Shown piece after piece: positions 4,913-27,540 of a stretch of DNA of 36,536 nucleotides. A program made the translations under genes and the position numbers. The notes beneath the pieces are model-generated. The model saw only the letters and a list, made by a program, of their open reading frames with translations. It was not told the DNA's origin and made no database searches. The stretch is from Verrucomicrobiota bacterium (GTDB lineage: Bacteria; Verrucomicrobiota; Verrucomicrobiia; Opitutales; Opitutaceae), in the NCBI GenBank assembly GCA_030601755.1, contig JAUWBF010000032.1:1-36536 (forward strand), written 5' to 3'. How positions within the stretch are numbered: position 1 is the first letter of the stretch; each line of letters opens with the position of its first letter.

Positions 4913-5061
4913 AGAGTATTTAAAATAAAGTCGTAGCCGTTTTGGGTGGAGCGGCTTGTCCCCAAGACGCTCGTTTGACGTGATGAACGTCTCCCGAACG
5001 CGTTGAGGACAACGCGTTCCACCTTCAAACAAAGCGGCTACAGTTTTATTTTAAACGCTCT
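4913..5061. repeat. 149-nt palindromic element, related copy at 16639-16701
   Basis: The element lies between convergent ftsY and the lipoprotein gene. Its ends are imperfect inverted repeats (AGAGTATTTAAAATAAA against 5043-5061), followed inward by GTAGCCG (4933-4939) and CGGCTAC (5035-5041), the same GTAG/CTAC bracket as the doublets at 12735 and 26765. Inside is a 9-bp hairpin, 4996-5004 with 5011-5019, around GAGGAC. A 32-nt block (4952-4983) is repeated identically, inverted, at 16639-16670. The remainder of this 273-nt gap shows no gene. Confidence 0.8.
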
Positions 5062-11874: not shown

Positions 11875-12702
11875 ATGCCCGTCATGCAAACCCGACTCCG
11901 TATCCGTCCGGCCATGACACTCCTCGCGGGCTTCGTCACCACCGCCGCCGCCCTGTTGGCCACGGCGTCGCCCGTCCGCGCCGCGGCCAACGACGAACTG
12001 CGCCAATGGTCGACCATCGACGCGTTGCTCAAGGGGCACTACGACGGCGTGGTCACGCTCGGCGAGGCGCGCAGCGCCGGCGACTTCGGCCTTGGCACGC
12101 TCGAAGCGCTCGACGGCGAGCTGCTCATCGTCGACGGGCGCGCCTACCAGATCGACTCGACTGGCGCGGTGCGCGAGCCGGCCGACGCGACGCCGCTGCC
12201 GTTCGTGGCGGTGACGGGTTTCGAGGCTGATGTCGTCTTCGACGTGCCGGCGGGGCTCGACATGGCCGTGTTGCAGGCGCGCGTGGAGGCCGCGCGCGTG
12301 TCGCCCAACTACGTCTATGCCGTGCGTGTGACCGGCGCCTTCGCCTCGGTGAAAACCCGCAGCGTGCCGCGCCAGACCAAGCCCTATCCGCCGCTCGCCG
12401 AGGTCGTGAAGACGCAGAGCATTTTTAACTTCGCCGACACGCGCGGCGTGCTCGTCGGCTTTGTGTGCCCGGGCTGGGTGCGCGGGCTCAACGTGCCGGG
12501 TCATCACTATCACTACCTGACCGACGCGCGCGACGGGGGCGGGCATGTGCTCGGCCTCGTCACCGGCGAGGGCGTGCGCGTTGAACTCGACCTGACGCCG
12601 GACTTCGCGATGCGCCTGCCGGTCAACGCGGACTTCGGCGCGCTCGACCTGACCGAGGACCGCGCCGCCGAGCTGCACGCCGTCGAGTCGGACCGGCGCT
12701 GA
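11875..12702 (+). CDS. budA: Alpha-acetolactate decarboxylase, predicted exported
   Basis: 275 residues. The decarboxylase converts alpha-acetolactate to acetoin. The body is clearly this family: STIDALLKGHYDGVVTLGE, GDFGLGTLEALDGELLIVDG, NYVYAVRVTGAFASVKTRSV, FVCPGWVRGLNVPGHHYHYL (zinc histidines) and the later DGGGHVLGL. It has an N-terminal signal peptide (RIRPAMTLLAGFVTTAAALLATASPVRA), so a periplasmic or extracytoplasmic location is expected. No acetolactate synthase or acetoin dehydrogenase gene is nearby. Start choice is uncertain among ATGs at 11875, 11884 and 11914; the last would shorten but not remove the hydrophobic leader. Confidence 0.9.
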   Translation: MPVMQTRLRIRPAMTLLAGFVTTAAALLATASPVRAAANDELRQWSTIDALLKGHYDGVVTLGEARSAGDFGLGTLEALDGELLIVDGRAYQIDSTGAVREPADATPLPFVAVTGFEADVVFDVPAGLDMAVLQARVEAARVSPNYVYAVRVTGAFASVKTRSVPRQTKPYPPLAEVVKTQSIFNFADTRGVLVGFVCPGWVRGLNVPGHHYHYLTDARDGGGHVLGLVTGEGVRVELDLTPDFAMRLPVNADFGALDLTEDRAAELHAVESDRR

Positions 12703-12734
12703 GTCCGCGAAGGTGGGGCGGCTTGTTCGGATTC

Positions 12735-12831
12735 GTAGGGGCTTTGCTTGCAAAGCCCGTTGAGCACCGGCTCGCCGGTGGAGCCGTTCTTGCCTATGGC
12801 GACAAACGGGCCGAGCGAGCTCGGCCCCTAC
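12735..12831. repeat. 97-nt REPIN-like doublet bounded by GTAG ... CTAC
   Basis: GTAG (12735-12738) is followed by a 9-bp stem, 12739-12747 with 12750-12758 and loop TT. The distal end has another 9-bp stem, 12808-12816 with 12819-12827 and loop GA, then CTAC (12828-12831). A 7-bp hairpin, CACCGGC/GCCGGTG (12765-12780), sits in the middle. The element at 26765-26861 has the same total length and order of parts. The gap is between the convergent budA and histidine-kinase genes. Confidence 0.9.
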
Positions 12832-12859
12832 GTTCAAAGGCATGCGAAAGACCAAACCG

Positions 12860-12881
12860 GGGCGGGCAGGAATGCCCGCCC
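12860..12881. repeat. 9-bp-stem hairpin with GGAA loop (variable-stem family)
   Basis: GGGCGGGCA (12860-12868) pairs perfectly with TGCCCGCCC (12873-12881). The loop GGAA is the complement of the TTCC loop seen at 382-411. The same stem with the opposite loop orientation is at 32465-32486. It lies 10 nt beyond the stop of the convergent histidine-kinase gene. Confidence 0.85.
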
Positions 12882-12891
12882 TCCTGGCGGC

Positions 12892-14454
12892 TCAGCCGCG
12901 GGCGCGGTCGAGCAGGCCGCGCGCGGCGTGCAGCAGCGCGCTGAGCGCGTAGGGTTTGACCAACGCGGTCTGCGCGTCGGCGGGCAGGGCGGGGAAGGGA
13001 TTGGCGCCCGAGCTGGAGGTGCACAGCACGCACAGGCCGGGGCGGTCGGCGCGCAGGCGGCGGACCAGCGCCTCGGCGGCGGCGTGGCGGTGGGCGGGGT
13101 CGACGATCACCAGGTCGACGGGCAGGGGTTGGCGTTCAATCAACGCGACCGCGGCGGCGGGCGTCTCGACCGGGTGCACGCGGTAGCCGTCGGCGGTGAG
13201 GATGCCGGCGAGCATCTTGCGCACGACTTCGTCGGCCTCGATGAGCAGCACGGTCTCGCGGCCCTTGGTCGAGGGCAGCGGCGCGAGCGCGCCGGAGAGC
13301 GGGGCGGCCTGGCCGCGCACGCGCGGGAAGCGCAGGGTGAAGGTCGTGCCGGCGCCGAGCGCGCTGCGCACGGCGATGTGGCCGCCGCTCTGCTGCACGA
13401 TGCCGTAGACCAGCGCGAGGCCGAGGCCGGTGCCGCGGCCCTCGTCCTTGGTGGTGAAGAACGGCTCGAAGAGATGGGCCTGCGTCTCGGTGTCCATGCC
13501 GGAGCCGTTGTCGGCGACGGTGAGCTCGACGCAGGCTCCGCGCGGGCCGTCGCCGACGCCGCCGCGCTGCGGGGCGCGTTGCGCGGTGCCGAGGGTGACG
13601 GCACCGCCGGGCGCGAGCGCGTCGCGGGCGTTGACCACGAGGTTGACGAGCACCTGTTGGAGCTGGGCCGGGTCGACGCGCAGGTTGGCGTCGCCGGCGG
13701 CGAGCCGCAGGTGCAGGTGTTTGTCGGGGCCGAGCAGGCGGCCGAGGATGTCGGCGTTGTCGCGCACGAACTGGTCGAGGCGCACGACCTGCGGCGAGAG
13801 GGTCTGGCGGCGGCTGAAGGCCAGCAGGCGGCGCACGAGCGCGGTGGCCTTTTGCCCGGCCTGGTGGATCTCGTGCAGCTGGCGGGCGGCGTGGCGGCGC
13901 ACGGCGGGCAGGCCGGCCATGATCTCGCAGTAGCCGTTGATGACCGAGAGCAGGTTGTTGAAATCGTGCGCGACGCCGCCGGCGAGCCGGCCCACGGCCT
14001 CGAGGCGCTGGGCGTGGAGCAGGTCCTCCTGCAGACGCTGCTTGGCGGTCATGTCGTGGTAGGTGGCCACGAGGTGCGCGGGACGGCCGCGCGCGGCGGG
14101 CAGCAGGCCGACGGTCCACGATGCGTAGAGCCGGGAGCCGTCGCTGCGCTTGAGGTGACCTTCGCCGCGCAGCACGGGGTCGCCGGGGCCGGCGGTCTTG
14201 AGCCAGCGGCGAAGCTTGGTCGAGGCGTCGCGCTCGACGTGGAGAAACTGGTGCCCGCGGCCCACGAGACTGGCCGCGCCGTGACCGCTCATGGTCTCGA
14301 AGGCGGCGTTGGCGTGCACGATGGGCAGGCCGCCGCGGCCGGGCGCGTTGGCCAGCAGGAGCACGCCGTCGCCGAGCGCCTCGAGGGCGGCGGCGAGTTG
14401 CTCGACGGAGGGCGGGCGGCGCTTGGGCCGGGCGGTGCGGGCGACGGCGGGCAC
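12892..14454 (-). CDS. PAS hybrid sensor histidine kinase with C-terminal receiver-like domain
   Basis: 520 residues, no membrane segment, so a cytoplasmic sensor. A PAS domain occupies about residues 20-140 ([33 protein letters not shown]). HisKA follows with the phosphorylatable His163 in [11 protein letters not shown]. HATPase motifs are N-box [11 protein letters not shown] (about 270-280), [23 protein letters not shown]. From about residue 395 is a receiver-like domain ([38 protein letters not shown]) that keeps the candidate phosphoacceptor Asp and the Lys but has an unusual HRHAAA where MPGMDG is common. The GTG start at 14454 lies 2 nt after the pdxH stop. No response regulator is adjacent. 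Confidence 0.87.
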
Positions 14455-14456
14455 GG

Positions 14457-15095
14457 TCAGGGGGCCAGACGTTCGACGTGCCAGGAACCGTCCGCGCCGC
14501 GCCGGTAGCGCAGGCGGTCGTGCAAGCGGTTGCGCCGGCCCTGCCAGAACTCGACGCTGTCGGGCACGACGCGGAAGCCGCCCCAGTTGGCGGGCAGCGG
14601 CACGACCTGCCCGGCGAACTTTTGCTCATGGGCCTTGAGCGAGTCCTCGAGCACCTTGCGGTCGGCGATGACCGCGCTTTGCGGCGAGGCCCACGCGCCG
14701 AGCTGGCTGCCGTGCGGGCGGCTGTGGAAATACGCGTCGCTCTCCTCGCGGGAGATTTTCACGACCTTGCCCTCGACGATCACCTGGCGCTCCATCGGCA
14801 CCCAGGGGAAGGTCAGCGAGGCGCGCGGGTTGGCGGCGAGTTCGCGGCCCTTGCGGCTGTCGTGGTTGGTGAAAAACGTGAACCCGCGTCCGTCGAGGCC
14901 CTTGAGCAACACCACGCGCGAGGACGGCAGGCCGTCGGGGGTGGCCGTGGCGAGCACCATGGCGTTGGGCTCGTTGAGCCTGGCCGCCTCGGCTTCCTGG
15001 AACCACCGCTCGAATTGCCGGAACGGGTCCTTGGCGAGGTCCTTTTCGAGGAGCCCGGCGAGCGTGTAGTCTTTGCGAAGGTCGGCCAGTGACAT
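14457..15095 (-). CDS. pdxH: Pyridoxamine 5'-phosphate oxidase
   Basis: 212 residues, the usual PNPOx length. The FMN enzyme oxidises pyridoxine or pyridoxamine 5'-phosphate to pyridoxal 5'-phosphate, the last step of vitamin B6 synthesis or salvage. Characteristic segments: DPFRQFERWFQEAEAA, AMVLATATPDGLPSSRVVLLKG (FMN phosphate binding), FFTNHDSRKGRELAANP, SRPHGSQLGAWAS and WGGFRVVPDSVEFWQGRRNRLHDRLRY at the C-terminus. The following histidine-kinase gene starts 2 nt after its stop, so they are probably one transcript, without an obvious functional link. Confidence 0.95.
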   Translation of the reverse strand: MSLADLRKDYTLAGLLEKDLAKDPFRQFERWFQEAEAARLNEPNAMVLATATPDGLPSSRVVLLKGLDGRGFTFFTNHDSRKGRELAANPRASLTFPWVPMERQVIVEGKVVKISREESDAYFHSRPHGSQLGAWASPQSAVIADRKVLEDSLKAHEQKFAGQVVPLPANWGGFRVVPDSVEFWQGRRNRLHDRLRYRRGADGSWHVERLAP

Positions 15096-15232
15096 GGTGT
15101 GTTTCCCCTAGGTATGGTGGCGGTGGTGCGGGTGTCAAAAAACAACCTTTGGCCAAAGCCGCCGGCGGACAAGCCCGCGCCCGTTTTCCGGCCTCGCCTG
15201 CCGCGCCGCCGGCCTGCTTGGCTGGTCGCACC

Positions 15233-16474
15233 ATGACGCCCGCCGACCACATCGACGCCCACGCCGGGGACCTGTTGCAAACGCTGCGCGACCTCGTGCG
15301 CGTGCCCACGGTCAACCCGCCGGGTGTCGATTACGACGGCGTCACGCGCCTGCTCGTCGCCGAGCTCAAGCGCGCCGGTCTGCGCGCCCGCCGCGTGCGC
15401 GTGCCGGCCGCGCTGGCGGCGAAACACCTGTCGCCAGAGGACCGCCGCCACCCGCGCTACAACGTGCTGGGCTTCCTGCCCGCGAAGGGCGCGAAGAAGA
15501 CCCTCCACTTCAACGCCCATTACGACGTCGTGCCCGTATCCGGAAACTGGCGACACGACGGCCCGTTCTCCGGCGAGACGGAGCGCGGCTGGATTTACGG
15601 ACGCGGCACGGCCGACATGAAGGGCTCCATCGCGTCGTTGCTGGCGGCCCTGCGCGCGCTGCGGGCGACCGGCGTAGCGCCGTTGATGAACATCGAGGTG
15701 TCCTTCACCGCCGACGAGGAGACCGACTCGGCGCTCGGCGCGGAGTGGGTCGTGAAGAACGCCCCGATCAAGCCCGACTACGCCGTCGTCATGGAGGGCG
15801 GCGAGGGCGCCGAGGTCTGTTGCGGCCACAACGGCGTCGTCTGGCTCGAGGTCACCGTGCGCGGCAAGGCCGCCCACGGCAGCCTGCCGCACCTCGGCGT
15901 CAACGCCCTCGAAAAAATGTCCGCGCTGGTGATGGCGCTCGAGGAGCACAAGCGCGAGCTGGCCGCGCGCGTGTTCGTCACGCCCGCCGGCGCCGAGATG
16001 CGCCCCACGCTCAACCTCGGCGGCGTGTTTTCCTCCGGCGAGGGCGGCAAGATCAACACCGTGCCGGCGCTCGCGCGATTCTCCATCGACCGGCGCGTGC
16101 TGCCCGTCGAGACCGCCGCCGCCGCCGAGAAGGAGCTGCGCGCCTTCCTCGCCGCCGCCGCGCGCCGCATCCCCGGCTGCCGCATCACCGTGGCCAAGGT
16201 CTCCGAGAACCACCCGTGCTACACGCCGCCCGAGCATCCGTTCTTCGCCGCGATGGCGGAGTGCGTCGGCGCCGTGCGGCGCAAGCCCACGCGTTTCGAC
16301 GTGTCGCGCGGATTCAACGACATGCACTTCTTCTCACACGTGCTCAAAATCCCCGTGGTCGGCTACGGCCCCGGCGGCGACAACTGCCACGCCGTCGACG
16401 AGCGCGCCTCGGTGAAGGAACTGCTCGCGTCGGCGAAGATCTACGCGCGACTGCTGACGACTTTCGCGGGCTGA
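15233..16474 (+). CDS. M20-family metallopeptidase (ArgE/DapE-like)
   Basis: 413 residues. Two-zinc M20 deacylase/peptidase: HYDVVPV (first metal His and catalytic Asp), GRGTADMKG (bridging Asp), SFTADEETDS (catalytic Glu/Glu), VVMEGGEG (metal Glu) and the distal CHAVDER (metal His). A dimerisation lid domain begins near VTVRGKAAHGSLPHLGVNAL. The family includes acetylornithine deacetylase, succinyl-diaminopimelate desuccinylase and carboxypeptidases; none of the diagnostic pathway neighbours is present, so specificity is open. There is no signal peptide, so it is probably cytoplasmic. ATG at 15233 is used, as the preceding in-frame stretch is not conserved-looking and starts in the divergent promoter gap. 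Confidence 0.9.
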   Translation: MTPADHIDAHAGDLLQTLRDLVRVPTVNPPGVDYDGVTRLLVAELKRAGLRARRVRVPAALAAKHLSPEDRRHPRYNVLGFLPAKGAKKTLHFNAHYDVVPVSGNWRHDGPFSGETERGWIYGRGTADMKGSIASLLAALRALRATGVAPLMNIEVSFTADEETDSALGAEWVVKNAPIKPDYAVVMEGGEGAEVCCGHNGVVWLEVTVRGKAAHGSLPHLGVNALEKMSALVMALEEHKRELAARVFVTPAGAEMRPTLNLGGVFSSGEGGKINTVPALARFSIDRRVLPVETAAAAEKELRAFLAAAARRIPGCRITVAKVSENHPCYTPPEHPFFAAMAECVGAVRRKPTRFDVSRGFNDMHFFSHVLKIPVVGYGPGGDNCHAVDERASVKELLASAKIYARLLTTFAG

Positions 16475-16533
16475 GCGGGCGTCGGACGCGGTTTGTGTGG
16501 GTTGGTTCTGCTTTGATCAGCTGGCCCGCCCGT

Positions 16534-16609
16534 GTAGGCCGCCTGCTTGCAGGCGCGATGGGGGGTATCGGACGGGGGCGTCGAACGCGCCTGCAAGCAG
16601 GCGGCCTAC
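16534..16609. repeat. 76-nt REPIN-like doublet with perfect 24-nt inverted repeats
   Basis: The first 24 nt (16534-16557, beginning GTAG) are the exact reverse complement of 16586-16609 (ending CTAC). Each arm folds into a 7-bp stem with a TT or AA loop (CGCCTGC type). A half-copy of the arm core is at 29722-29735. The gap lies between the convergent M20 and histidine-kinase genes. Confidence 0.9.
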
Positions 16610-16638
16610 CATCGACCCCAACGTTCGAGAAGCGTGCG

Positions 16639-16701
16639 TCACGTCAAACGAGCGTCTTGGGGACAAGCCGTCCCGCCCAACATGGCCACGATTTTATTTA
16701 A
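16639..16701. repeat. Inverted partial copy of the 4913-5061 element
   Basis: Positions 16639-16670 equal the reverse complement of 4952-4983 over 32 nt, and similarity continues, with mismatches, through the A/T-rich end (ATTTTATTTA) to 16701. It directly follows the doublet at 16534-16609. This 256-nt convergent gap therefore holds two repeat types and no gene. Confidence 0.8.
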
Positions 16702-16730
16702 GCCGCATTGGCGTGCCGGTGTCCGCACCG

Positions 16731-17987
16731 CTACGACGCGCCTTGATCGGCGGCCGCACTCGCATCAGCACCCGCGTTGGCGACCGCCGGTAATATGATC
16801 GTGAATACGGTTCCGCGCCCCGCCTCCGACTCCACGGTGATCGAGCCGCCGTGCTTCTTGATGACCGCGTAGACCGTGGCCAGGCCGAGGCCGGTGCCCT
16901 TTTCCTTGGTGGTGAAAAACGGCTCCCAGATGCGCGGCAGCACCTCGGCGGGGATGCCCGGGCCGTTGTCGCGGATGGTCACTCGCACCACCGGCCCGTC
17001 GAACGGCGTGCCCGAGGCCGCGCCGCCCCAGCCCTGCTGGTTGATCGCGCTCACCTCCAGCGCGCGGCCGGGCGCGTCGCCCATGGCCTGCACGGCGTTG
17101 ACGCAGAGGTTGGAGATCACCTGATCCATCTGCACGGGGTCGGCCTTCACCGGGAGCAGGTCGGGCGCAAGATCGAGATTGAGCGCGACGTTCGAGTGCA
17201 CCACCGCGCCCTTCGCCGCCTCCGCCACGAGCGGGCCGATGACCAGCGTGCGCAGTTGCGGCGCCGAGCCGCGGGCGAAGGACAGCAGGTTCTTCGACAA
17301 CTCCTGCGCGCGCCATGCGGCGGACTCGATGGCCGCGGTGCGCTTGCCCGCGTCGGGCGGCAGCTCGGCGGACTTCATGCGCAGTATGGCGGTGTTGCCC
17401 AGGATGATCGTGAGCAGGTTGCCGAAGTCGTGCGCCACGCCGCCGGCCAGCATGCCGAGCGACTCCAGCCGCTGCGCGCGCGCCGCCCGCTCGCGCTCCT
17501 CGGCCAAGGCCTTCTCGGCGGCACGGCGCTCGGTGATGTCGGTGAACACCCCGAAGATGCCCACCGGCGCGCCGGACTCGTCGCGGATGATGTCCGCCCG
17601 CACGAACGCCGGCACCGTCCGCCCGTCCTTCGTGCGCACCTCCGTCTCGCCGTGCCAGGAGTTGCCCGCGCGGATGCTCGCATGGATCTCCGCCGCGACC
17701 TTCAGGTCGGCGAAGAGCACGCCGACCTCCGGCACCGCGTTGAGCTCCTCCACCGTGTAGCCGAACAGCTGCATGTGCGCGCGGTTGTGATAGACCGAGT
17801 TGCCCTCGAAGTCGCCGATGCCGATCGCGTCCGAGGCGCTTTCCACCGCCTGGCTGATGCGCGCCAGCGTCAGCGCGGTGTGCTCCAGCTTGCGCCGCGC
17901 GCGCCGATGATGCCACGCGCTCCACCCCCACCCGCCCATCAGGAGCGCGGCGATCAGCCAGGGAATTGTTGCGACAAGCGGCGGCAT
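16731..17987 (-). CDS. Membrane-anchored PAS sensor histidine kinase
   Basis: 418 residues. One N-terminal membrane helix (about 6-24) has almost no periplasmic part, so it anchors rather than senses outside signals. A PAS domain with PAC (about 45-155) includes SVYHNRAHMQLFGYTVEEL and GIFGVFTDITERRAAEKAL. A short coiled linker leads to HisKA with His186 in GGVAHDFGNLL. The ATPase domain has the N-box SNLCVNAVQAM, DNGPGIP, and EPFFTTKEKGTGLGLATVY. There is no receiver domain, and no response-regulator gene is adjacent. Its kinase core resembles that of the hybrid kinase at 12892-14454. The 3' end is within the convergent repeat-filled gap. Confidence 0.88.
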   Translation of the reverse strand: MPPLVATIPWLIAALLMGGWGWSAWHHRRARRKLEHTALTLARISQAVESASDAIGIGDFEGNSVYHNRAHMQLFGYTVEELNAVPEVGVLFADLKVAAEIHASIRAGNSWHGETEVRTKDGRTVPAFVRADIIRDESGAPVGIFGVFTDITERRAAEKALAEERERAARAQRLESLGMLAGGVAHDFGNLLTIILGNTAILRMKSAELPPDAGKRTAAIESAAWRAQELSKNLLSFARGSAPQLRTLVIGPLVAEAAKGAVVHSNVALNLDLAPDLLPVKADPVQMDQVISNLCVNAVQAMGDAPGRALEVSAINQQGWGGAASGTPFDGPVVRVTIRDNGPGIPAEVLPRIWEPFFTTKEKGTGLGLATVYAVIKKHGGSITVESEAGRGTVFTIILPAVANAGADASAAADQGAS

Positions 17988-18158
17988 GAGGTGTTTCCTC
18001 TACGCAAGGGACGTTCTCCAAATATTCAAAGAGCAATCGCCACGCGTGCCGGCGTCTTTAGCACAAAGCCGCCGCCCGCAGCACAGCGCCGACCGCCCCG
18101 GCCATTCGCCCTTGTTTCGTCCGGAGCGGTTCCGCATCGTCCGCCCCATCTTACACCC

Positions 18159-19571
18159 ATGAAAATCAACGCCACCCTCACCCCGGCCAAGCTCCAGAAG
18201 AAACTGGACCGCGTGTTCGAGCTCGCGGGCCAGAAGATCACCTCGATCAACAAGTCCTGGGACCCCTCCAAGGGCACGCCCGTCTTCACCATCAAGGGCA
18301 AATACACCTCGCGCGGCTGGACCGAGTGGACGCAGGGCTTCCAGTTCGGCATGGCGTTCCTGCAGTTCGACGCCACCGGCGACGAGTCCTTCCTCGCGCT
18401 CGGCCGCGAGAAGACCCTCAAGCACATGGCCTCGCACGTCTCGCATGTCGGCGTGCACGACCACGGCTTCAATAACGTCTCCACCTACGGCAATCTCCGC
18501 CGCCTGATGCTCGAGGGACGCATCCCCTACAACCAGGACGAGATGAACTACGCCGAGCTCGCCCTCAAGGTCTCCGGCGCCGTGCAGGCCGCCCGCCACG
18601 CCACCACCAACCAGACCGCCCCCTGGTCGCCCGTGAAGGGCTCGCCCGGCGTCGTGCCCTCCGGCTACGTCTACTCCTTCAACGGCCCGCAGTCCCTCTT
18701 CGCCGACACCATCCGCTCCATGCGCGCCCTCGTCGTCGCGCACCAACTCGGTCACGTGCTCATGGGTGAGGGCGACAAGCCCATCAATCTCCTCCACCGC
18801 GCCGTCGAGCACGCCGCCACCACCGCCCGCTACAACGTCTTCTTCGGTCAGGGCCGCGACAGCTACGACGTGCGCGGCCGCGTCGCCCACGAGTCCGTCT
18901 TCAACCGCAACGACGGCCAGTTCCGCTGCCCCTCCTCGCAGCAAGGCTACTCGCCCTTCACCACCTGGACCCGCGGCGCCGCCTGGATCATCTGCGGCTA
19001 CGCCGAGCAGCTCGAGTTCCTCGACACCGTCAAGGGCCGTGACCTCGACGCCGTCGGTGGCCGCCGCGCCGTCACCAACCTCCTCCTCGAGACCGCCCGC
19101 GCCACCGCCGACTACTACATCGACGGCTACACCGCGCTCGACGGCATCCCCTACTGGGACAGCGCCGCGCTCAACTGGGCCGCCATGGGCGACATCACCA
19201 AGAAGCCCGCCGATCCCTTCAACGCCTACGAGCCCGTCGACAGCTCCGCCGCCGCCATCACCGCGCAAGGCCTCATCCGCCTCGGCCTCTGGCTGCAAAA
19301 CAACGGCGACGCCAAGGCCGGCAAACGCTACTACCAAGCCGGCCTCACCGTCGCCGAGTCGCTCTTCTCCGACACCTACCTGTCGGCCGATCCCAAGCAC
19401 CAGGGCCTGCTCCTGCACAGCGTTTACCACCGCCCCAACGGCTGGGACCACATCCCGAAGGGGCAAAAAGTCCCCTGCGGCGAGGCCTGCATGTGGGGCG
19501 ACTACCACGCCATGGAACTCGCGCTCCTCATCAAGCGCATCGGCGAAAAGAGCTACCTCACGTTCTTCTAA
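18159..19571 (+). CDS. Glycoside hydrolase family 88 (unsaturated glucuronyl hydrolase-like)
   Basis: 470 residues, longer than the 370-400 usual for the family. GH88 enzymes remove unsaturated uronic acids from oligosaccharides released by polysaccharide lyases, by hydrating the vinyl-ether bond. Landmarks: VHDHGFNNVSTYGNL (the HDxGF catalytic aspartate region), the SSQQGYSPFTTWTRGAAWIICGYA segment, GIPYWDSAA, PVDSSAAAITAQGLIRLG and GEACMWGDYHAMELAL. There is no obvious signal peptide, suggesting that oligosaccharides are processed in the cytoplasm. ATG 18159 is preferred because upstream sequence is antisense to the divergent kinase. It has a strong terminator downstream and no lyase or transporter neighbours. 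Confidence 0.88.
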   Translation: MKINATLTPAKLQKKLDRVFELAGQKITSINKSWDPSKGTPVFTIKGKYTSRGWTEWTQGFQFGMAFLQFDATGDESFLALGREKTLKHMASHVSHVGVHDHGFNNVSTYGNLRRLMLEGRIPYNQDEMNYAELALKVSGAVQAARHATTNQTAPWSPVKGSPGVVPSGYVYSFNGPQSLFADTIRSMRALVVAHQLGHVLMGEGDKPINLLHRAVEHAATTARYNVFFGQGRDSYDVRGRVAHESVFNRNDGQFRCPSSQQGYSPFTTWTRGAAWIICGYAEQLEFLDTVKGRDLDAVGGRRAVTNLLLETARATADYYIDGYTALDGIPYWDSAALNWAAMGDITKKPADPFNAYEPVDSSAAAITAQGLIRLGLWLQNNGDAKAGKRYYQAGLTVAESLFSDTYLSADPKHQGLLLHSVYHRPNGWDHIPKGQKVPCGEACMWGDYHAMELALLIKRIGEKSYLTFF

Positions 19572-19581
19572 AAAACGCCGC

Positions 19582-19643
19582 TTCGTGGCACAGGCATGGC
19601 CGACTGTCGGGCTGCGCCCTCGAAACCTGCCTGTGCGCTCGGC
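19582..19643. repeat. Degenerate relative of the 382-411 hairpin
   Basis: After the GH88 stop, a CGTGGCACAGGCA-type arm like that at 382-394 recurs, followed some 40 nt later by the complementary TGCCTGTGC. The TTCC loop is replaced by about 30 nt of unrelated sequence, as if the hairpin had been expanded or interrupted. Confidence 0.5.
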
Positions 19644-19670
19644 GTCAAAGTCCGTTCCCCTCCTTCAACC

Positions 19671-19700
19671 AATCCCGCCTCCGTCGAGGCGGGATTTTTT
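19671..19700 (+). terminator. Strong intrinsic terminator of the GH88 gene
   Basis: AATCCCGCCT (19671-19680) pairs perfectly with AGGCGGGATT (19687-19696) around CCGTCG, directly followed by TTTT (19697-19700). It is the clearest rho-independent terminator in the window, 100 nt after the GH88 stop. Confidence 0.92.
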
Positions 19701-19765
19701 GCGACGTGGTGGACGCCTCTTGCCCGTGCTCCGCGTCCCCGCCTCGCCATGAGAAGGCGCGCCGT

Positions 19766-20497
19766 TCAGCGACCGGCTTCGCGCCGGTAGGTATAACTCT
19801 CCCGCCCGGTCAACGGCTCGGAGCGATGGATCTCCTGGCCGTTCTCCGTCAGCACCAAGCGACCTTTGAAATCCGTCGGCAGTCCGGTGAGCGTGAACTC
19901 CACGATATGCTGCCCCCGTAGCACTCCGGAATAGTATTTTGGCGTCTCCACCAGCTCCACGCCGCTGGCATTGAACTTGATGACGATCTTCCAATCACCG
20001 CGCGGAAAATCTTCCGCAAAGGTGAAGCCCAGTTGTCGGTCGGGCGGCCCCTTCCATCCTAGGTCCGTGGTGCGTCGGCCTGCCAGCAGATAACCTCCGC
20101 CCGCCTGCACATAGGGAATCGTCGCCTCCACGCTCGCACGCCCTTGCCGGCTGGCTACGCGGATCACGCCCAGTGGCTTGGCGCTCAGTTCGATCTTACG
20201 CCCGTTGTAGACATTGGGGCGGCTGATATCCACGATGTCGGGCAGTCGATCAACGCTGACCGTCGCCTCACCCTCCGCTGGTATCAACCCCGCCAGCCCC
20301 GCATGGGCCGCTTGCCGGTCCTCCAAAGAAAGCCCTTCGGTGTGCGTGAGCGCGACCAGTCCGTCCACGTCGGAGGCCTTGATCGCCCGATCCACCGCCG
20401 CCGCCAGCTCCTGCGGAGTCGACGGGATCGGCGTCCCGCAGGCCACGCCCGCCATCCAGACCATGCTCGTGAAGGTGAACCATAATAAGCGCGTCAT
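19766..20497 (-). CDS. Exported hypothetical protein
   Basis: 243 residues from ATG 20497. The N-terminus MTRLLWFTFTSMVWMAGVACGTPIP is a signal peptide; the Cys suggests a lipoprotein, but the lipobox (GVAC) is weak and cleavage after VACG is also possible. The mature part starts with a helical segment (TPQELAAAVDRAIKASDVDGLVALTHTEGLS), as in proteins that count or gate small repeats, then beta-rich sequence with several aromatic strands (GDWKIVIKFNASGVELVETPKYYSG). I recognise no family. It is 49 nt downstream of ligA on the same strand and probably co-transcribed; no functional tie to ligase is evident. Confidence 0.7.
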   Translation of the reverse strand: MTRLLWFTFTSMVWMAGVACGTPIPSTPQELAAAVDRAIKASDVDGLVALTHTEGLSLEDRQAAHAGLAGLIPAEGEATVSVDRLPDIVDISRPNVYNGRKIELSAKPLGVIRVASRQGRASVEATIPYVQAGGGYLLAGRRTTDLGWKGPPDRQLGFTFAEDFPRGDWKIVIKFNASGVELVETPKYYSGVLRGQHIVEFTLTGLPTDFKGRLVLTENGQEIHRSEPLTGRESYTYRREAGR

Positions 20498-20546
20498 ACG
20501 GCCATGACGTCCAAGCGACCGCCTTTGTGTCAAACCCGGTCGCATA

Positions 20547-22700
20547 TCACTCCGCCTCGCCCAGTCGCTCGGTCAACGCCGCCTCGTCGATCACCGTGAT
20601 CCCGCGTTCGCGGGCCGACGCCAGCTTCGCGCCCGCGTCCTCGCCGGCCACGACCAGTGTCGTGCGTTTGGTCAGGTTGGAATCGACCCGCGCGCCCGCC
20701 GCCTCCAGCCGCCGCGTCGCCTCGGTGCGCGTCCAACGCTGTAACCGTCCCGTCAATACAACCGTCTCGCCGGCGAACGCGCCCGCGTTCGCTGTCGCCT
20801 CTCCTTTCGCGGTGCCGACGCCGAACTTCGCCAGCGCCGCCAGCTCGACGCGCACCGCCGGCTTCGCCAGGTGCTCGGCCACCGCGTCCGCGACGCCTTC
20901 GTCCAGGCCCGCCGCGGCCAACGCCGCGCGATCGGCCGACAACAACGCGGCCCAGTCCGGCGCCGCCTTGGCCAGCGCTTCCGCCCGACCCGCGCCCACG
21001 CCGGGCAAACCCAATCCGCCCAGCACCGCCGGCCACGGCGCGCTCCGGCTCGCCGCGATGGACGCCAGCAGCTTGTCCGCCGAACGCTCGCCGATACCCG
21101 GCAACGCCAGCAGGTCGGCGCGTTCCAGCCGGTAAAGCTCCGCCAGCCCGCGCACCTTGCCGCTCTCCACCAGCGCCGCGATGGTCGCCGGACCCAGCCC
21201 CGTGATATCCACGCCGTTTTTCGACGCGAACCACTCCACGCGCCGCGCCAGCACCGCGGGACACGCGTCGTTCACGCAACGCAGCAGTCCGACGCGTCCC
21301 CCGCCTCCCGCCTCGTCCGCCTCCGCCGCCACCTGCCCGCCGCAGGCCGGACACACTTCCGGCGGCATCCACGGTGCCGCGTTCGCCGCACGCCGCGAAC
21401 GGTCCACGCCCACGATGGCCGGGATGATCTCGCCGGCTTTTTCCACCCAGACCGTGTCGCCGATCCGCAGGTCGAGCGCGACGATCTCGGCCGGGTTGTG
21501 CAACGTCGCCCGCGCCACCCTCGAACCGTCCAGCGTGATCGGTTCCAGTTCAGCCACCGGCGTCAGCACGCCCGTGCGGCCCGCCTGCCACGTGATGCCG
21601 ACCAGCCGCGTCGCCGCCCGTTCGGCGGGGAATTTGCGCGCGATGGCCCAACGCGGCGTGGCCGGCCCGGTTCCCAGCCGTTCCTGATCGGCGGTCAGCT
21701 CCAGCTTCACGACCACGCCGTCGGTCGGAAAACCCAACCGCGCGCGTTCGTCGCGCAACGCATCGACCGCCGTCCGCAGTTCCGTCCAGCCCTCGCCGGT
21801 GCGCGCCCCCTCCACCACCGACAGACCCCACGCGCGCAGCATCCCGGCGAAATCGCCCAGCGACGCCGGCCGCGCCGACGCCGGTTCGACCGCGCCCCAG
21901 GCGTAGCAGACCAGGGACAGCCGCCGTCCCGCGTTGGTCGCCGGATCGAGCGCCTTCACGCTGCCCGCCGCCAGATTACGCGGATGCGCAAAGACCGGCT
22001 CGCCCGCCGCCTCGCGCTCACGGTTGAGCCGAGCGAACTCCTCCAGCCCGAGGTAAATCTCGCCGCGGATCTCGATCAACGCCGGCGCTTCGTGCTCGAT
22101 CGCGAGCACTTCCGGCGGGGCGCACAACGCGCGCACGTTAGCCGTGATGTCGTCCCCCTCCTCACCGTCGCCGCGCGTGACCGCGCGCGCCAGCCGGCCG
22201 TGTTCGTAAACCAAACTCACCGCGATGCCGTCGAACTTCGGCTCGACCCGCCAGGCGATCTCGTCGCGTCCGAGGGTGCCGCTCGCCCGCGCATAAAACG
22301 CCGACAGCTCCGCGTCCGAATATGCTTTGTCCAAGCTCAGCATCGGCGCTCCGTGCCGCCGCTTGGCAAAACCCTCCGCGCGGTCGTCGCCGATCTTTTC
22401 GCCGGCCACGCCGCCCGCCGCGCCACCGTCACCCATGCCCTCCGTGCCGCCGCCACCCCTGTCGCCAAAATCCGGATACGCCTGTTCGAGCCGTCGCAGC
22501 TCGGCCTTGAGCGCGTCGTAGGCCGCGTCGCTGATCTCCGGCGCGTTTTTGCGGTAATACAGCTCGTCGTGGTGGGCGATCTCCCGCCGCAGTTCGAGGA
22601 TGCGCGCGTGGTCCGTCGGACTGGCGGCGAGGGCACCGCTCAAGAACAGCACGAGCGTCACGATCATCAGCCATGGTGGTGTTCGCGTGTGTTTCCGCAT
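20547..22700 (-). CDS. ligA: NAD-dependent DNA ligase with N-terminal hydrophobic leader
   Basis: 717 residues. The Ia domain (ELRREIAHHDELYYRKNAPEISDAAYD) binds NMN; the nucleotidyl-transfer lysine is K155 in EPKFDG; RGDGEEGDDIT and the OB-fold follow. Four zinc cysteines are in CPACGG and CVNDACP, then helix-hairpin-helix repeats and a C-terminal BRCT domain (GAFAGETVVLTGRLQRWTRTEATRRLEAAGARV). All catalytic parts look intact. Oddly, the N-terminus MRKHTRTPPWLMIVTLVLFLSGALAASPTDHARI reads as a signal peptide or membrane anchor where LigA normally begins straight with the Ia helices; alternative starts within the hydrophobic stretch are only GTG or TTG codons. A Gly-rich insert (GGGGTEGMGDGGAAGGVAG) lies between the Ia and adenylation domains. 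Confidence 0.88.
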   Translation of the reverse strand: MRKHTRTPPWLMIVTLVLFLSGALAASPTDHARILELRREIAHHDELYYRKNAPEISDAAYDALKAELRRLEQAYPDFGDRGGGGTEGMGDGGAAGGVAGEKIGDDRAEGFAKRRHGAPMLSLDKAYSDAELSAFYARASGTLGRDEIAWRVEPKFDGIAVSLVYEHGRLARAVTRGDGEEGDDITANVRALCAPPEVLAIEHEAPALIEIRGEIYLGLEEFARLNREREAAGEPVFAHPRNLAAGSVKALDPATNAGRRLSLVCYAWGAVEPASARPASLGDFAGMLRAWGLSVVEGARTGEGWTELRTAVDALRDERARLGFPTDGVVVKLELTADQERLGTGPATPRWAIARKFPAERAATRLVGITWQAGRTGVLTPVAELEPITLDGSRVARATLHNPAEIVALDLRIGDTVWVEKAGEIIPAIVGVDRSRRAANAAPWMPPEVCPACGGQVAAEADEAGGGGRVGLLRCVNDACPAVLARRVEWFASKNGVDITGLGPATIAALVESGKVRGLAELYRLERADLLALPGIGERSADKLLASIAASRSAPWPAVLGGLGLPGVGAGRAEALAKAAPDWAALLSADRAALAAAGLDEGVADAVAEHLAKPAVRVELAALAKFGVGTAKGEATANAGAFAGETVVLTGRLQRWTRTEATRRLEAAGARVDSNLTKRTTLVVAGEDAGAKLASARERGITVIDEAALTERLGEAE

Positions 22701-23002
22701 GGACAAGGCTGTTGCATAAATCCGGCCAAACGGCGCCCGCGTTTCCTCTTTCCGCCGCCACGCCCATGCCCGCCCTGCGCGCCTTCCCGCGACAACCCAA
22801 GGTCCAGGTCTCCATGTCGGCAAAGAGTAACCTATTGGGTTACTCTTGGGCGTTTTTCAGAGGTGAGGCGGTGGCCTAAAGAGTAACCCAATAGGTTACT
22901 CTTTGCCGGAGGCGGCGGGGCGTGGGTGGGGCTGGCGGGGAGTGCGGGGCGGGGTTTTTTGCACTTTCGGCGAGGGGCGATGGGTGGCAGGGTGGGGGTT
23001 CC
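22701..23002. promoter_or_regulatory. Divergent region between ligA and the PHP gene
   Basis: This 302-nt gap contains no convincing gene. It holds the inverted doublet at 22819-22907 and then a G-rich block with six runs of 3-4 G (22917-22920, 22924-22926, 22928-22931, 22937-22940, 22946-22949, 22951-22954) followed by TTTTTT at 22955-22960, 43 nt before the PHP start. Promoters for both divergent genes must lie here but I cannot pick hexamers with confidence. Confidence 0.6.
22819..22907. repeat. 89-nt doublet of inverted AT-richer palindromes
   Basis: The 29 nt at 22819-22847 are the exact reverse complement of 22879-22907. Each arm is itself a palindrome: AAGAGTAACC and GGTTACTCTT (10 bp) around TATTG in the left arm and around CAATA in the right arm, so even the loops are mutually complementary. 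The sequence is much less GC-rich than its surroundings. It lies between the divergent ligA and PHP genes. Confidence 0.92.
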
Positions 23003-23833
23003 ATGTCCGTGCCGCTGCTTTACGAGTCCCACTGCCACACGCCTCTCTGCAAACATGCCGTCGGCACGCCCGACGAGTATGCGACCATGGCGGGGTTGCG
23101 CGGGTTCAAGGGCATCATCTTCACCTGCCACTGCCCGCTGCCGGGCGGGTTCGCGGCTGACGTGCGCATGGCACCGGAGGAGTTCGACGCCTACGCGGAG
23201 ATGATCGCGGCCACGCGCGCGCGGTTCGCGGGGCGCGTCGACGTGCGGCTTGGGTTGGAGAGCGACTTTTATCCGGGCGTCGAGTCGTGGCTGGAGGAAC
23301 TGCACGCGCGGCATCCGCTCAACCACGTGCTGGGCTCGGTGCATTACCAGATGCAGGACTACCGGCTGCGGTTTCAGCGGGGCGACGCGTTCGACTACCA
23401 GCAACTTTACTTCGAGCACCTCGCGCTGTCGGCCGAGAGCGGGCTCTACGACACGCTGGCGCATCCGGACCTCATCAAGAACGACTCGCCGCGCGAGTGG
23501 GATTTTGAACGCATCCGTCCGCACATCGAGCGCGCGCTGGACCGCATCGCGGCGACCGGCGTGTCGATGGAACTCAACACGAGCGGTCTGCTCAAGGCGC
23601 TGCCCGAGATGAACCCGAGCCGCGACATGCTGGCGTTGATGAAGGCGCGCGACATCCCGGTGGTGATCGGGGCGGACGCGCACCGGCCCGAGCGCGTGGG
23701 CGACCGTTACGGCGAGGCGCTCGAGACGCTCGCCGACATTGGCTACACGGAGGTCGGCTATTTCCTGGAGCGCAAACGCCACAACGTCGCCATCGCCGAC
23801 GCGCTGGCGTCGTTGAAGCGCGCGCCGTTGTGA
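23003..23833 (+). CDS. PHP-domain phosphoesterase (histidinol-phosphatase HisJ-like)
   Basis: 276 residues. The PHP metal-binding motifs are in order: YESHCHTPLC (H-x-H), IIFTCHCPLP, GLESDFYPG (E), VLGSVHYQ (H), TLAHPDLIK (H) and GADAHRPERVG (D-x-H) near the end. This spacing resembles HisJ-type histidinol-phosphatases, which dephosphorylate L-histidinol phosphate in histidine synthesis; other PHP hydrolases share it, and no his genes are nearby. The ATG at 23003 begins directly before the first beta strand and follows a G-rich stretch (GGGTGGGGG) that may act as the Shine-Dalgarno sequence. Confidence 0.88.
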   Translation: MSVPLLYESHCHTPLCKHAVGTPDEYATMAGLRGFKGIIFTCHCPLPGGFAADVRMAPEEFDAYAEMIAATRARFAGRVDVRLGLESDFYPGVESWLEELHARHPLNHVLGSVHYQMQDYRLRFQRGDAFDYQQLYFEHLALSAESGLYDTLAHPDLIKNDSPREWDFERIRPHIERALDRIAATGVSMELNTSGLLKALPEMNPSRDMLALMKARDIPVVIGADAHRPERVGDRYGEALETLADIGYTEVGYFLERKRHNVAIADALASLKRAPL

Positions 23834-23883
23834 TCGTTGGGCTGCCGGCGGCTACCGGGCGGGCGGGTTGGCCGGTCAGCCTG

Positions 23884-23904
23884 GCGCCGGTTGCAAACCG
23901 GCGC
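23884..23904. repeat. 9-bp-stem hairpin between convergent genes
   Basis: GCGCCGGTT (23884-23892) pairs perfectly with AACCGGCGC (23896-23904), loop GCA. It lies in the 85-nt gap between the convergent PHP and pyk genes. No T-tract follows in either direction, so any terminator role is conditional. Confidence 0.8.
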
Positions 23905-23918
23905 TCCTTGGGGCCGGC

Positions 23919-25352
23919 TCAGCGCACGGTGCGCAGCTGGATGCTGTCGACGAGGCGGTCGTGCGAGAGGATGTCGGTGACGACGATGAGCTTGTCGCCG
24001 ATCTTCACCTCGCCGAGGTCGACGAGCAGGGAGATGGCCTTCGAAATGGTGTCGTTGGGATCGGACTCCAGCTCCATCAGGAGCGGGATGACCGAGCGCA
24101 GCAGGCGCATCTGGCGGAGGGTGGTCACCGAGTTGGTGATGGCGAAGATGGGCGCGCGGGTGGGGCGCATGGCGGCGAGGCCCTGCGCCATGAAGCCCTG
24201 GCGGGTGAAGGTGAGCAGCTTGGAGCCCTCCATCTCGTGCGCGAGGTGCACGGCGGAGCGGAGCAGGTTGTGCTTGTCGCCGGTGAGCAGGTCGGGGTCG
24301 GCGAGATCGAACGGGCCCTCGCTCTCGATGCGGCGGGAGATCTTGTCGAAGATGGCGACGCACTCGAGGGGGTATTTTCCGACGGTGGTCTCGCCGGAGA
24401 GCATGACGCAGTCGGCCTTCTCGTAGACGGCGTTGGCGACGTCGGTGATCTCGGCGCGGGTGGGCATGGGCGAGCTGATCATCGACTCGAGCATGTGGGT
24501 GGCGATGATCACGGGCTTGCCGTGGTGGAAGCAGCTCTTGACGGCGCGGCGCTGGATGACGGGCAGGTCCTCGAAGGGGCACTCGATGCCGAGGTCGCCG
24601 CGGGCGACCATGAGCGAGTCGCACGCGTCGATGATCTCGTCGAGGTTCTCGATGGCGGACTGGTCCTCGATCTTGGCGATGATCTTGGCCTTGGAATTAT
24701 TGGCCCGGAGAAACTCGCGGAGGGTCTCGATGTCGGCGGCCGCGCGCACGAAGGAAAGGGCGACGAAGTCGATGCCTTCCTCGATGCCGACGAGGGTGTC
24801 GCCGCGGTCCTTCTCGGTGAAGGAGGGCAGGTTGACCTTCACGCCGGGGAGGTTGATGTGGCGGCGCGAGGTGAGCTGGCCGGCAGTGAGGACCTTGCAG
24901 CGGATGCGGGCGTTTTTCTTGTCGAGCACCTCGAAGCGCATGAGGCCGCTGTCGACCAGCACGATGTCGCCGACGTGGATGTCGTTGATGAGGTCCTGGT
25001 AGTTGACGTTGACCGAGCGGACTTCCTCGCCGCCGTCCTTGTCGCCGGGCTTGACGGTGAAGTCGAAGGTCTCGCCCTCCTTCAGCTCGATGGGGGCCTC
25101 GACGTCGCCGGTGCGGATCTCGGGTCCCTTGATGTCCATCATGATGGCGACCTCGCGGCCGATCCGGGCGGAGACGGCGCGGATGCGGCGGATGATCATG
25201 CGGGTCCACTCGTGGTTGGCGTGCGCCATGTTGAGGCGGGCGACGTCGGCCCCGCCGGAGATGATTTTCTCCAGCATGGCCTCCTCCATGGTGGCCGGTC
25301 CGAGGGTGAAGACGATCTTGGTGCGACGGAAGTGGTCGATGGACGTTTGCAT
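23919..25352 (-). CDS. pyk: Pyruvate kinase
   Basis: 477 residues. Pyruvate kinase transfers phosphate from phosphoenolpyruvate to ADP in the last step of glycolysis. Conserved features: TKIVFTLGPAT at the N-terminus, ARLNMAHANHEW, IMMDIKGPEIRTGDV, the B-domain (LKEGETFDFTV to INLPGVKVNLP), AKIEDQSAIENLDEI with the catalytic Lys, VARGDLGIECP, the signature region ATHMLESMISSPMPTRAEITDVANAV and DCVMLSGETTVGKYP. The C-terminal regulatory domain is present. Notably MAHANHEW replaces the usual NFSHGxHE. ATG at 25352 is chosen because the alternative upstream start adds 20 residues that are not conserved. Confidence 0.95.
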   Translation of the reverse strand: MQTSIDHFRRTKIVFTLGPATMEEAMLEKIISGGADVARLNMAHANHEWTRMIIRRIRAVSARIGREVAIMMDIKGPEIRTGDVEAPIELKEGETFDFTVKPGDKDGGEEVRSVNVNYQDLINDIHVGDIVLVDSGLMRFEVLDKKNARIRCKVLTAGQLTSRRHINLPGVKVNLPSFTEKDRGDTLVGIEEGIDFVALSFVRAAADIETLREFLRANNSKAKIIAKIEDQSAIENLDEIIDACDSLMVARGDLGIECPFEDLPVIQRRAVKSCFHHGKPVIIATHMLESMISSPMPTRAEITDVANAVYEKADCVMLSGETTVGKYPLECVAIFDKISRRIESEGPFDLADPDLLTGDKHNLLRSAVHLAHEMEGSKLLTFTRQGFMAQGLAAMRPTRAPIFAITNSVTTLRQMRLLRSVIPLLMELESDPNDTISKAISLLVDLGEVKIGDKLIVVTDILSHDRLVDSIQLRTVR

Positions 25353-25440
25353 GCAGGGTCCGACACTGCGCGAAGCATGCCAACCGGCAAGCGCCCGATT
25401 AGACAAATTCACGTGACGATGCGTGGCGCTAATGGGGCGC

Positions 25441-26238
25441 TTAAGCCAAGTCGATGAACGGCGTGCGTCCGCCCGGCGCCACGATGGAAAACAGGCAGCC
25501 GACGCGCCGGCGCAGGTTGGCGAGCGCGGCCTCCACGGCGTCGAGGCTGTTGCAATCGCGGCTCAGGTGGGTGAGCAGCACGTGCCGCCAGCGGGGGCTG
25601 GCCACGGCCTCGAGCAGCTCGCGCATGCCGTCGTTGGAGAGGTGTCCGTGGCGGCCGGCGATGCGCTGCTTGGTGGACCAGGGGCGCTTGAGGTCGGCCT
25701 CGAGCAGGCGCGGGCAGTGGTTGGCCTCGATGGCCACGGCGTCGACCTCGCGGATGCGGTCGTGCACGTGGTGCGGCACGTGGCCGAGGTCGGTCAGCCA
25801 GGCGATGCTGCGGCGCGGCGTGAACAGGTCGCCGTCGCCCGCCGCGAAGACGTAGCCGACCGGGTCCTGCGCGTCGTGCGGCAGGGAAAAGGTGTCGATC
25901 TCCAGATCGCGAAAACGAAACCGCGCGCCCGTCTCGAAGCGCTGCCAGTCGGGCGTGTGGCTGAGCTTGGCCTGCACCGCGCGCGCGGTGGCGTGGTTGG
26001 CGAAGACCTTGATGTGGGGAAACTTTTTCAGGCCCTCGACGCCCGCCACGTGGTCGCCGTGTTCGTGGGTGATGAACACCGCGTCGACCTTGGCGAGGTC
26101 CTCGCCCGCCTCGTGCACGAGCTGCCGGAGCTTGCGCCCCGAAAAGCCCGCGTCGATGAGCACGCGCGCGCCGGCCGTGCACAGCAGGGCGCTGTTGCCC
26201 TCGCTGCCGCTGCCCAGAATACAAAAACGCATCGCCAT
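25441..26238 (-). CDS. Metallo-beta-lactamase-fold hydrolase (YycJ/WalJ-like)
   Basis: 265 residues. N-terminal MRFCILGSGSEGNSALL is the hallmark of the YycJ/WalJ subgroup of MBL-fold exonucleases or hydrolases. Metal motifs: THEHGDHVAGV (HxHxDH), a further His in SLPHDAQD, and the region EANHCPRLL and LTHLSRDCNS near the C-terminus. B. subtilis YycJ-type proteins have been linked to double-stranded DNA exonuclease activity and cell-wall regulation; which applies here is unknown. ATGs at 26238 and 26232 (MAM...) are both possible; homology suggests MRF at 26232. There is no clear Shine-Dalgarno sequence. It lies 88 nt upstream of pyk on the same strand. Confidence 0.88.
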   Translation of the reverse strand: MAMRFCILGSGSEGNSALLCTAGARVLIDAGFSGRKLRQLVHEAGEDLAKVDAVFITHEHGDHVAGVEGLKKFPHIKVFANHATARAVQAKLSHTPDWQRFETGARFRFRDLEIDTFSLPHDAQDPVGYVFAAGDGDLFTPRRSIAWLTDLGHVPHHVHDRIREVDAVAIEANHCPRLLEADLKRPWSTKQRIAGRHGHLSNDGMRELLEAVASPRWRHVLLTHLSRDCNSLDAVEAALANLRRRVGCLFSIVAPGGRTPFIDLA

Positions 26239-26370
26239 GGGGCCGGTTTCTAGGGGCCCTGTGCGGCAGCACAAACCGAAAGCCGCGCCAGGTCCGTTCA
26301 GGCCTTCGATGGTCGCGGGAAAAACTTGGCAAACCGTATGCTGATCAGGTGCGTGCAACTGATCACACCT

Positions 26371-26751: not shown

Positions 26752-26764
26752 GTCGTCTGCGCGC

Positions 26765-26861: not shown

Positions 26862-26938
26862 GGTTGGGCCGCCCGCCGGCGGCGCAAACCCCGCGCCGGC
26901 GTTGACCAGCGGCGGGTTTTCCCCTCTGTTGGCCCCTC

Positions 26939-27430: not shown

Positions 27431-27453
27431 CCCGCCTTACATCACCATCAATT

Positions 27454-27475: not shown

Positions 27476-27540
27476 CCCGCCGCCGGACGTTGTTATCGTC
27501 ACCCAACTTGCCGGCGGCCGCGAAAACCAAAAAAAACGAC

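Follow-up and report, generated by a model that had tools for sequence, protein, structure and literature searches.

Paired change in the hairpin stems of a probable REPIN family in an Opitutaceae genome

Two 97-nt elements in a 36.5-kb stretch of Opitutaceae DNA, referred to here in its entirety as the window, very probably represent a single REPIN family, that is, non-autonomous mobile hairpin pairs of the RAYT type within the GTAG superfamily, with movement judged from homology to TnpA-REP systems. Variation in the stems of these hairpins falls mainly in a middle triplet (hereafter the word), with the foot (GTAG-GGGC) and the tip (C-TY-G) nearly fixed.

Read directly from the sequence, REPIN 1 (12735-12831) is a 97-nt inverted (head-to-head) doublet of GTAG REPs with the words TTT and CGA. 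Its left unit (12735-12758, plus strand) consists of GTAG (12735-12738) followed by GGGCTTTGC-TT-GCAAAGCCC, with stem arms at 12739-12747 and 12750-12758 around a TT loop (12748-12749). A 49-nt spacer (12759-12807) leads to the right unit (12808-12831, minus strand), where GTAG (12831-12828) precedes GGGCCGAGC-TC-GCTCGGCCC. REPIN 2 (26765-26861), an inverted doublet of the same length, combines the words CGA and CGC. GTAG (26765-26768) opens its left unit (26765-26788, plus strand), and the stem GGGCCGAGC/GCTCGGCCC encloses an AA loop (26778-26779) that is the reverse complement of the usual TT, i.e. an inverted loop; beyond a spacer again of 49 nt (26789-26837), the right unit (26838-26861, minus strand) reads GTAG (26861-26858), then GGGCCGCGC-TC-GCGCGGCCC. 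Both elements carry GTAG at each outer end, reading inward on the respective strand, and all four stems are perfect 9-bp helices with 2-nt loops; the preliminary description of two REPIN-like doublets of this build was correct to the base. These four units, forming two inverted doublets, compare with a mean of 0.005 units and no doublets in 200 dinucleotide-preserving shuffles of the window.

Each spacer contains a mid-spacer hairpin, CACCGG-CTCG-CCGGTG (12765-12780) in REPIN 1 and CACCG-TGCTC-CGGTG (26791-26805) in REPIN 2. This CACCG-type hairpin had been put forward as part of the common plan; it is present in both copies but, with spacers compared by eye, is not constant across the family. 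The spacer of REPIN 1 has its kin in loci L004, L103, L106, L111, L116, L125 and L136, and REPIN 2 shares a spacer subfamily with L014, L115 and L117. Because the two elements fall in different subfamilies, the earlier term "twin" holds for their plan and not for nearest kinship. REPIN 1 lies downstream of a gene with an alpha-acetolactate decarboxylase domain (PF03306; 11740-12702, plus strand), and a gene for a PAS/histidine kinase/receiver protein (12892-14454, minus strand) converges on it. REPIN 2 is preceded by a glyoxalase-like protein gene (26326-26751, plus strand) and followed by a 6-pyruvoyl tetrahydropterin synthase-like gene (PF01242; 26939-27430, plus strand). Other palindromic elements were also seen in the window. 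A further inverted doublet, of 58 nt, occupies 28763-28820 (GTAG-CGCAGGCT-TCC-AGCCTGCC ... GGCAGGCA-GGA-TGCCTGCG-CTAC), and its unit gave nine matches in the fetched loci of the same genome and the window. GTGG-tagged hairpins make up a 77-nt inverted doublet at 4946-5022 (GTGGAGCGGCTTG-TCCC... and GTGGAACGCGTTG-TCCT...), and a double-foot element at 383-410, GTGGCACAGGCATTCCTGCCTGTGCCAC, is one hairpin with GTGG at both ends.

A strict doublet pattern (GTAGGGGC, 40-100 nt, GCCCCTAC) found 55 doublets in the 3.55-Mb source genome, and none when read backwards. With up to two stem mismatches per arm and a required GGGG start (the foot's final base counted in), the fetched loci of this genome yielded 59 doublets versus 12 single units. 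The unit consensus is GTAG GGGC NNN GC TY GC N'N'N' GCCC, often followed by GTT. Of 118 doublet arms, 115 have GTAG as the foot and the other 3 have GCAG; all 12 singles have GTAG. This separate count supplies the true feet, since in the 48 arms used for covariation below the foot was set by the script and its conservation there is no result. Words in the 118 arms were CTC (41), CGA (24), CTT, TTC and CGC (11 each), TTT (10), GTC (4), CGT (2) and four seen once each, and loops in 130 arms were TC (77), TT (42), TG (5), AA (3), GA (2) and TA (1). The two features by which REPs of the GTAG superfamily are recognized were found here: a GT[AG]G tetranucleotide stands directly at the foot of a palindrome, and the units are dispersed in many copies mostly outside genes, with 4 of 59 doublets inside a predicted gene.

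The 97-nt length common to both window elements is also the commonest in the family (14 of 59 doublets, with 98 nt in another 12), but does not extend to the family as a whole, which ranges from 62 to 104 nt. Lengths cluster at 66-67, 77-79, 87-92 and 95-100 nt. The clusters, near 67, 78, 88 and 97 nt, lie about one helical turn apart, and in a phase test over periods of 9.5-11.5 bp none of 2,000 random sets scored as high as the lengths in this genome. We rejected helical phasing as a general rule: the 21 lengths outside 95-100 nt gave a best period of 12.2, and lengths in relatives were lineage-specific (among the matches listed, 82 and 109 nt in genome G052, 101 in G050, 71-72 in G036, 57-60, 65 and 70 in G016, and 69 in G017). 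By an open reading frame choice based on GC3 rather than a gene finder, 30 of the 59 doublets lie between convergent genes, 21 between co-directional and 2 between divergent genes, and 4 are inside genes; 2 were assigned no context. This distribution agrees with the abstract of PMC3733652, in which REPs are usually located between convergent and unidirectional genes. On contig C16 of the source assembly (locus L020, 1652-1918), 67-nt doublets starting at 1652, 1752 and 1852 form a BIME-like tandem array with 100-bp spacing.

Pairing was assessed with no pairing filter in 50 of the 55 strict doublets, the set on which the unfiltered neighbor comparisons below are also based. In their 100 arms, stem positions 5-9 held Watson-Crick pairs in 492 of 500 cells, and 83 arms had a perfect 9-bp stem. 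Among 48 distinct arms with at most two mismatches, the covariation score was 0.418 versus a shuffled mean of 0.156, with none of 500 shuffles as high and slid controls at or below 0.123. Mutual information within stems was 0.85, 0.95 and 1.22 bits at positions 5, 6 and 7, respectively; between the two arms of a doublet, the values at these positions (0.00, 0.04 and 0.12 bits) did not rise above shuffles. The covariation result upholds the proposal that stems change with pairing kept. Words combine about at random over all doublets (11 same-word doublets versus 11.6 expected), and a preference for heterodimers was rejected on this count; the CGA|TTT combination is associated with one spacer subfamily. 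An apparent G-U asymmetry between 5' and 3' arms was discarded, since the search pattern fixed the 5' arm.

Change in place was examined by comparing half-elements over the 26 nt next to the arm. In the filtered set (52 of 59 doublets, those of at least 86 nt), 56 pairs had at least 69% identity, of which 23 shared the same stem, 31 showed two-sided pair changes and 6 any one-sided change. The unfiltered strict doublets (47 of 50) gave 51 pairs at this threshold, with 20 identical stems, 29 two-sided Watson-Crick changes and 6 with any one-sided change; about 2.2 of these 51 pairs are expected by chance, and the pairs, drawn from 28 elements, are not independent. At 76% identity or more, 20 strict-doublet pairs comprised 11 with the same stem, 7 two-sided and 3 with any one-sided change, so that the two-sided excess is weaker among the closest half-elements. 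Loci L111 (word TTT) and L112 (TTC), with 85% identity over the adjacent 26 nt, provide an example. Selection against mismatched copies explains the maintenance of pairing, although the data do not separate selection on pairing from template switching, which is a possibility.

With template switching, a word change would arise in one step when a replicating hairpin copies a changed arm onto the other, and the RAYT would merely spread the results. We regard this as a tentative alternative, less probable than not. Loop inversion is named in PMC8794818 as a template-switching footprint, and of 130 arms five, spread over four different words, have an inverted loop (AA or GA). Where the loop starts with A or G, the second base is A in 5 of 5 arms versus 1 of 125 others (Fisher 2e-8), and one-base intermediates are almost lacking; one more AA loop was present among 42 arms of G052. 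These five inverted loops hint at template switching, in keeping with a tip of the CTTG type, the loop that PMC8794818 reports as over-represented among hairpins with instantaneous compensatory changes (2.43% versus 0.01%), and with the surplus of two-sided over one-sided changes. However, selection against mismatches predicts the identical two-sided excess, mismatched intermediates exist (e.g. TTC/GAG and CTC/AAG arms), and two of the AA cases have a common word and may be one event. The lack of excess same-word doublets offers no indication that one half of an element has been copied from the other. Moreover, PMC8794818 found enrichment of loop inversion only, and none of compensatory change combined with loop inversion; its authors themselves label their stem-maintenance evidence circumstantial.

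A stronger form of this idea appears doubtful to us: hairpins tipped with the highly stable C-TY-G would rewrite their own stems via template switching, with arm-to-arm copying, an occasional loop flip and drift of the mid-stem by whole pairs, and the transposase would police foot and tip alone. If so, the stem diversity of REPINs would be a by-product of replication, and bacterial genomes would hold in it a natural record of template switching. No title or abstract tying REP stem variation to template switching was found in the literature covered, which takes in few subscription journals. Also unlikely is an exchange of words among elements, either through recombination or through strand transfer of entire hairpin modules by a RAYT. 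Swapping accords with the small number of words (eight seen more than once), which are common to the subfamilies, and with the independent assortment of the arms of a doublet. Yet the words form a network linked by single-pair steps, and in 15 of the 56 related comparisons the difference is confined to one pair, as in-place change predicts.

Transposases of the expected type were sought in relatives. Strict doublets occurred in 26 of 95 genomes searched (source genome included). The RAYT of G052 is 100% identical to a RAYT of Geminisphaera colitermitum TAV2 and is enclosed by GTAG-GGGC-TTC-GC-TT-GC hairpins, which are built as in our family and carry the word TTC. In G050 and G002, the RAYT is situated between two full doublets. 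Thus, a cognate RAYT flanked by its own REP in the same genome, the arrangement that defines a REPtron, was seen in G052, G050 and G002 and not in the source assembly. A flank survey covered 32 named RAYT loci of 80 fetched. Within 350 nt, GTAG-GGG hairpins were found at 21 loci and GTAG-GG hairpins at 2 more; the remaining 9 of 32 had no such hairpin by the criteria used. The tip was C-TT-G or C-TC-G in 63 of 66 hairpins at the surveyed loci. At locus L259, from a Kiritimatiellae MAG, five hairpins (within 1310-2151) end in GACC instead of GCCC, producing a constant G-A mismatch at stem position 3. This is reminiscent of E. coli REPs, which have a conserved bulge.

Several lines of evidence identify the transposases of this clade as RAYTs (TnpA-REP). 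The best PDB match of their profile was TnpA-REP 4ER8 (E 1.6e-10), the NCBIfam REP_Tyr_transpos (NF047646) cut-off was passed by 3 of 3 members scanned, and DHxH, Y140 and N144-P145 were invariant in 5 of 5 aligned members, giving the HuH and Y-xxx-NP motifs of the group. A PP-x-EW tail and a Y-x-[FY]-x-NP motif are common to all five aligned members of the Opitutaceae clade. In a set of 37 genomes, strong clade RAYTs coincided with doublets at 140 bits (9 of 15 versus 0 of 22, p 4e-5). This association depends on threshold (p 0.02 at 80 bits), and when the four genomes with RAYTs that went into the profile or come close to it were set aside, it gave p 0.0019 at 140 bits and 0.14 at 80 bits.

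No cognate-clade RAYT was detected in the source assembly (152 contigs, 96.14% complete), where absence from the assembly does not equal absence from the cell. A RAYT search, as proposed in the preliminary description, was productive in relatives, with RAYTs flanked by GTAGGGGC hairpins, and unproductive in the source assembly itself. The PF01797 profile recovered three Y1 genes and NF047646 added those on contigs C6 and C55, for a total of five (C6, C55, C72, C125 and C22). Only C6 (68.8 bits) and C55 (31.3 bits) matched the cognate-clade profile, both weakly. C6 is flanked by GTGGATGCGG-type repeats and C55 by a different REP family, GT[AG]G-CCCCGAGC-GTGA. With such hairpins on both sides of its RAYT-like gene (locus L193, 1677-2552), C55 constitutes a separate REPtron-like locus. 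C72 and C125 display NHYH and YIHLNP motifs, which in Table 1 of PMC6006769 denote subclass 2.1, reported without REPs; C22 (NHFH, YIDLNC) has no exact row in that table and is nearest to 2.1/2.3. At the thresholds used, no GTAG hairpin was found beside C72, C125 or C22, the first two of which are at contig ends with one flank each missing. We hold these three genes to be unlikely mobilizers, given the motif subclass without REPs (C72 and C125) and no adjoining GTAG hairpin in the available flanks.

Hairpin copies can persist without a detected RAYT, as illustrated by G017. This 97%-complete genome has 16 strict doublets (L342-L354) and no Y1 transposase by the PF01797, NF047646 or A1 profile, and its doublets are an orphan REPIN population. 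The population of the source genome, with its diverged spacers, may likewise be an orphan after transposase loss. Best-partner spacer identity was 0.91 in G052 and 0.75 in G050, both with a RAYT, 0.71 in the source genome and 0.76 in G017; the notion that RAYT presence keeps spacers alike holds only in G052 and was rejected as a rule. We infer that a RAYT of this type spread the copies in the source genome.

It is very unlikely that the stem words represent separate specificities, each with its own RAYT, which would make the family a composite of several REP families. RAYTs and REPs have been reported to pair specifically and coevolve (PMC2817692; PMC6006769). Moreover, hairpin type was clustered on a tree of 21 of the 23 hairpin-bearing RAYT loci (L252 and L267 left out) and two genes of the source genome: with hairpin labels assigned by hand beforehand, there were 4 changes versus a shuffled mean of 10.9, with 0 of 200 shuffles as low. 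On the same tree the hairpin type of our family does not form one clade, appearing in two places with 2 changes. Against separate specificities, many doublets join arms of unlike words and the words combine about at random, albeit with CGA|TTT tied to one spacer subfamily; two or more words are present at 9 of the 21 RAYT loci with GTAG-GGG hairpins; the single RAYT of L259 has a doublet of words CGC and TTC on each side; and the source assembly contains no detected clade RAYT. Equally improbable is a primary role of the elements as transcription terminators or mRNA 3'-end stabilizers under RNA-level selection rather than as mobile DNA: the hairpins are GC-rich and close behind genes, 30 of 53 placed elements are convergent and 2 divergent, and some G-U pairs occur at stem positions 1-3, but these are one-sided because the search fixed the 5' arm, convergent and unidirectional intergenic sites are usual for REPs, similar hairpins enclose RAYT genes, and no Rfam family reached the gathering threshold in window positions 12000-27600. 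Terminators are not known to require a GTAG foot at both ends or a C-TY-G tip.

Movement of the family as REPINs, the preferred reading, would begin with single-stranded DNA in which both halves of a doublet form hairpins. A HuH tyrosine transposase of the REP-associated type would then read the GTAG foot with its GGGC base and the C-TY-G tip and cut alongside, and the doublet would be moved whole. Between foot and tip, the three stem pairs would act as a paired spacer only, and hence be free to change if both sides change together. The nearly fixed foot and tip, with a free, paired middle, fit published TnpA-REP determinants. In S. maltophilia, changes to GTAG impair or abolish cleavage, though binding tolerates them; one loop base is critical; and a stem mismatch harms cleavage, with stem sequence less important (PMC8266576). 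Further copies, excess covariation and RAYTs in relatives, the absence of which had been named beforehand as evidence against REPINs, were all found.

Collectively, these results describe an Opitutaceae REPIN family with a free mid-stem and a RAYT clade that accompanies such hairpins in relatives. Natural variation here separates the nearly fixed parts of a REP, foot and tip, from a part that needs only pairing. With dozens of copies per genome, the family offers material for testing the origin of compensatory changes in DNA hairpins, and intact hairpins with no detected cognate transposase bear on the persistence time of orphan REPIN populations.

The family is of a known kind, because GTAG REPs, complementary stem alternatives and heterodimers (PMC3733652) and compensatory changes in REPINs of Pseudomonas fluorescens SBW25 (Bertels and Rainey 2011, PMC3116915) have already been described. 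Di Nocera et al. 2013 (PMC3733652) reported sub-families in most GTAG families, distinguished by alternative but complementary residues in the stem, along with heterodimers (dimers of unlike stems or loops) in many; these observations contradict the preliminary view that the stem is conserved in known REPs. Opitutus terrae, described there as highly enriched in GTAG repeats, has GTAG REPs (including GTAG-17, -19 and -20) that, like ours, carry GTAG at one end of a 6-13 bp stem with loops often of the TY type. Also shared are complementary stem alternatives, head-to-head dimers, like or unlike and mostly 20-100 bp apart, and sites between or behind genes. Unlike those heterodimers, our family has no preference for unlike-word pairs. 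The comparison with the 24 families of PMC3733652 was by description and not by consensus sequences, and our family may be among them.

Like the SBW25 REPINs (PMC3116915), the family has the inverted REP doublet as its unit, with spacer length kept, spacer sequence drifting and compensatory changes. The SBW25 ends are highly conserved 16-mers, in groups with specific RAYTs, whereas our family has a variable mid-stem and no cognate RAYT detected in its assembly. Stenotrophomonas REPs (Nunvar et al. 2013, PMC3686654) similarly join GTAG straight to a perfect stem of 8-9 bp, and SM12, GTAGAGTCGAGCTTGCTCGACT, has the same GCTTGC tip. In Stenotrophomonas stem words mark separate REP classes, whereas several words occur in our one family; slightly different REPs at one rayt gene were noted there as well. 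As with TnpA-REP of E. coli, S. maltophilia and Marinomonas (PMC8266576; 4ER8), foot and hairpin would be read as a single strand, and in group 3 systems of PMC8266576 loop bases matter and stem mismatch harms cleavage, stem sequence less so. What sets the Opitutaceae clade apart from those TnpA-REPs in sequence is its Y-x-[FY]-x-NP motif and PP-x-EW tail. New here are the pattern of fixed foot, fixed tip and free middle, transposase loci with several words, and the five inverted loops.
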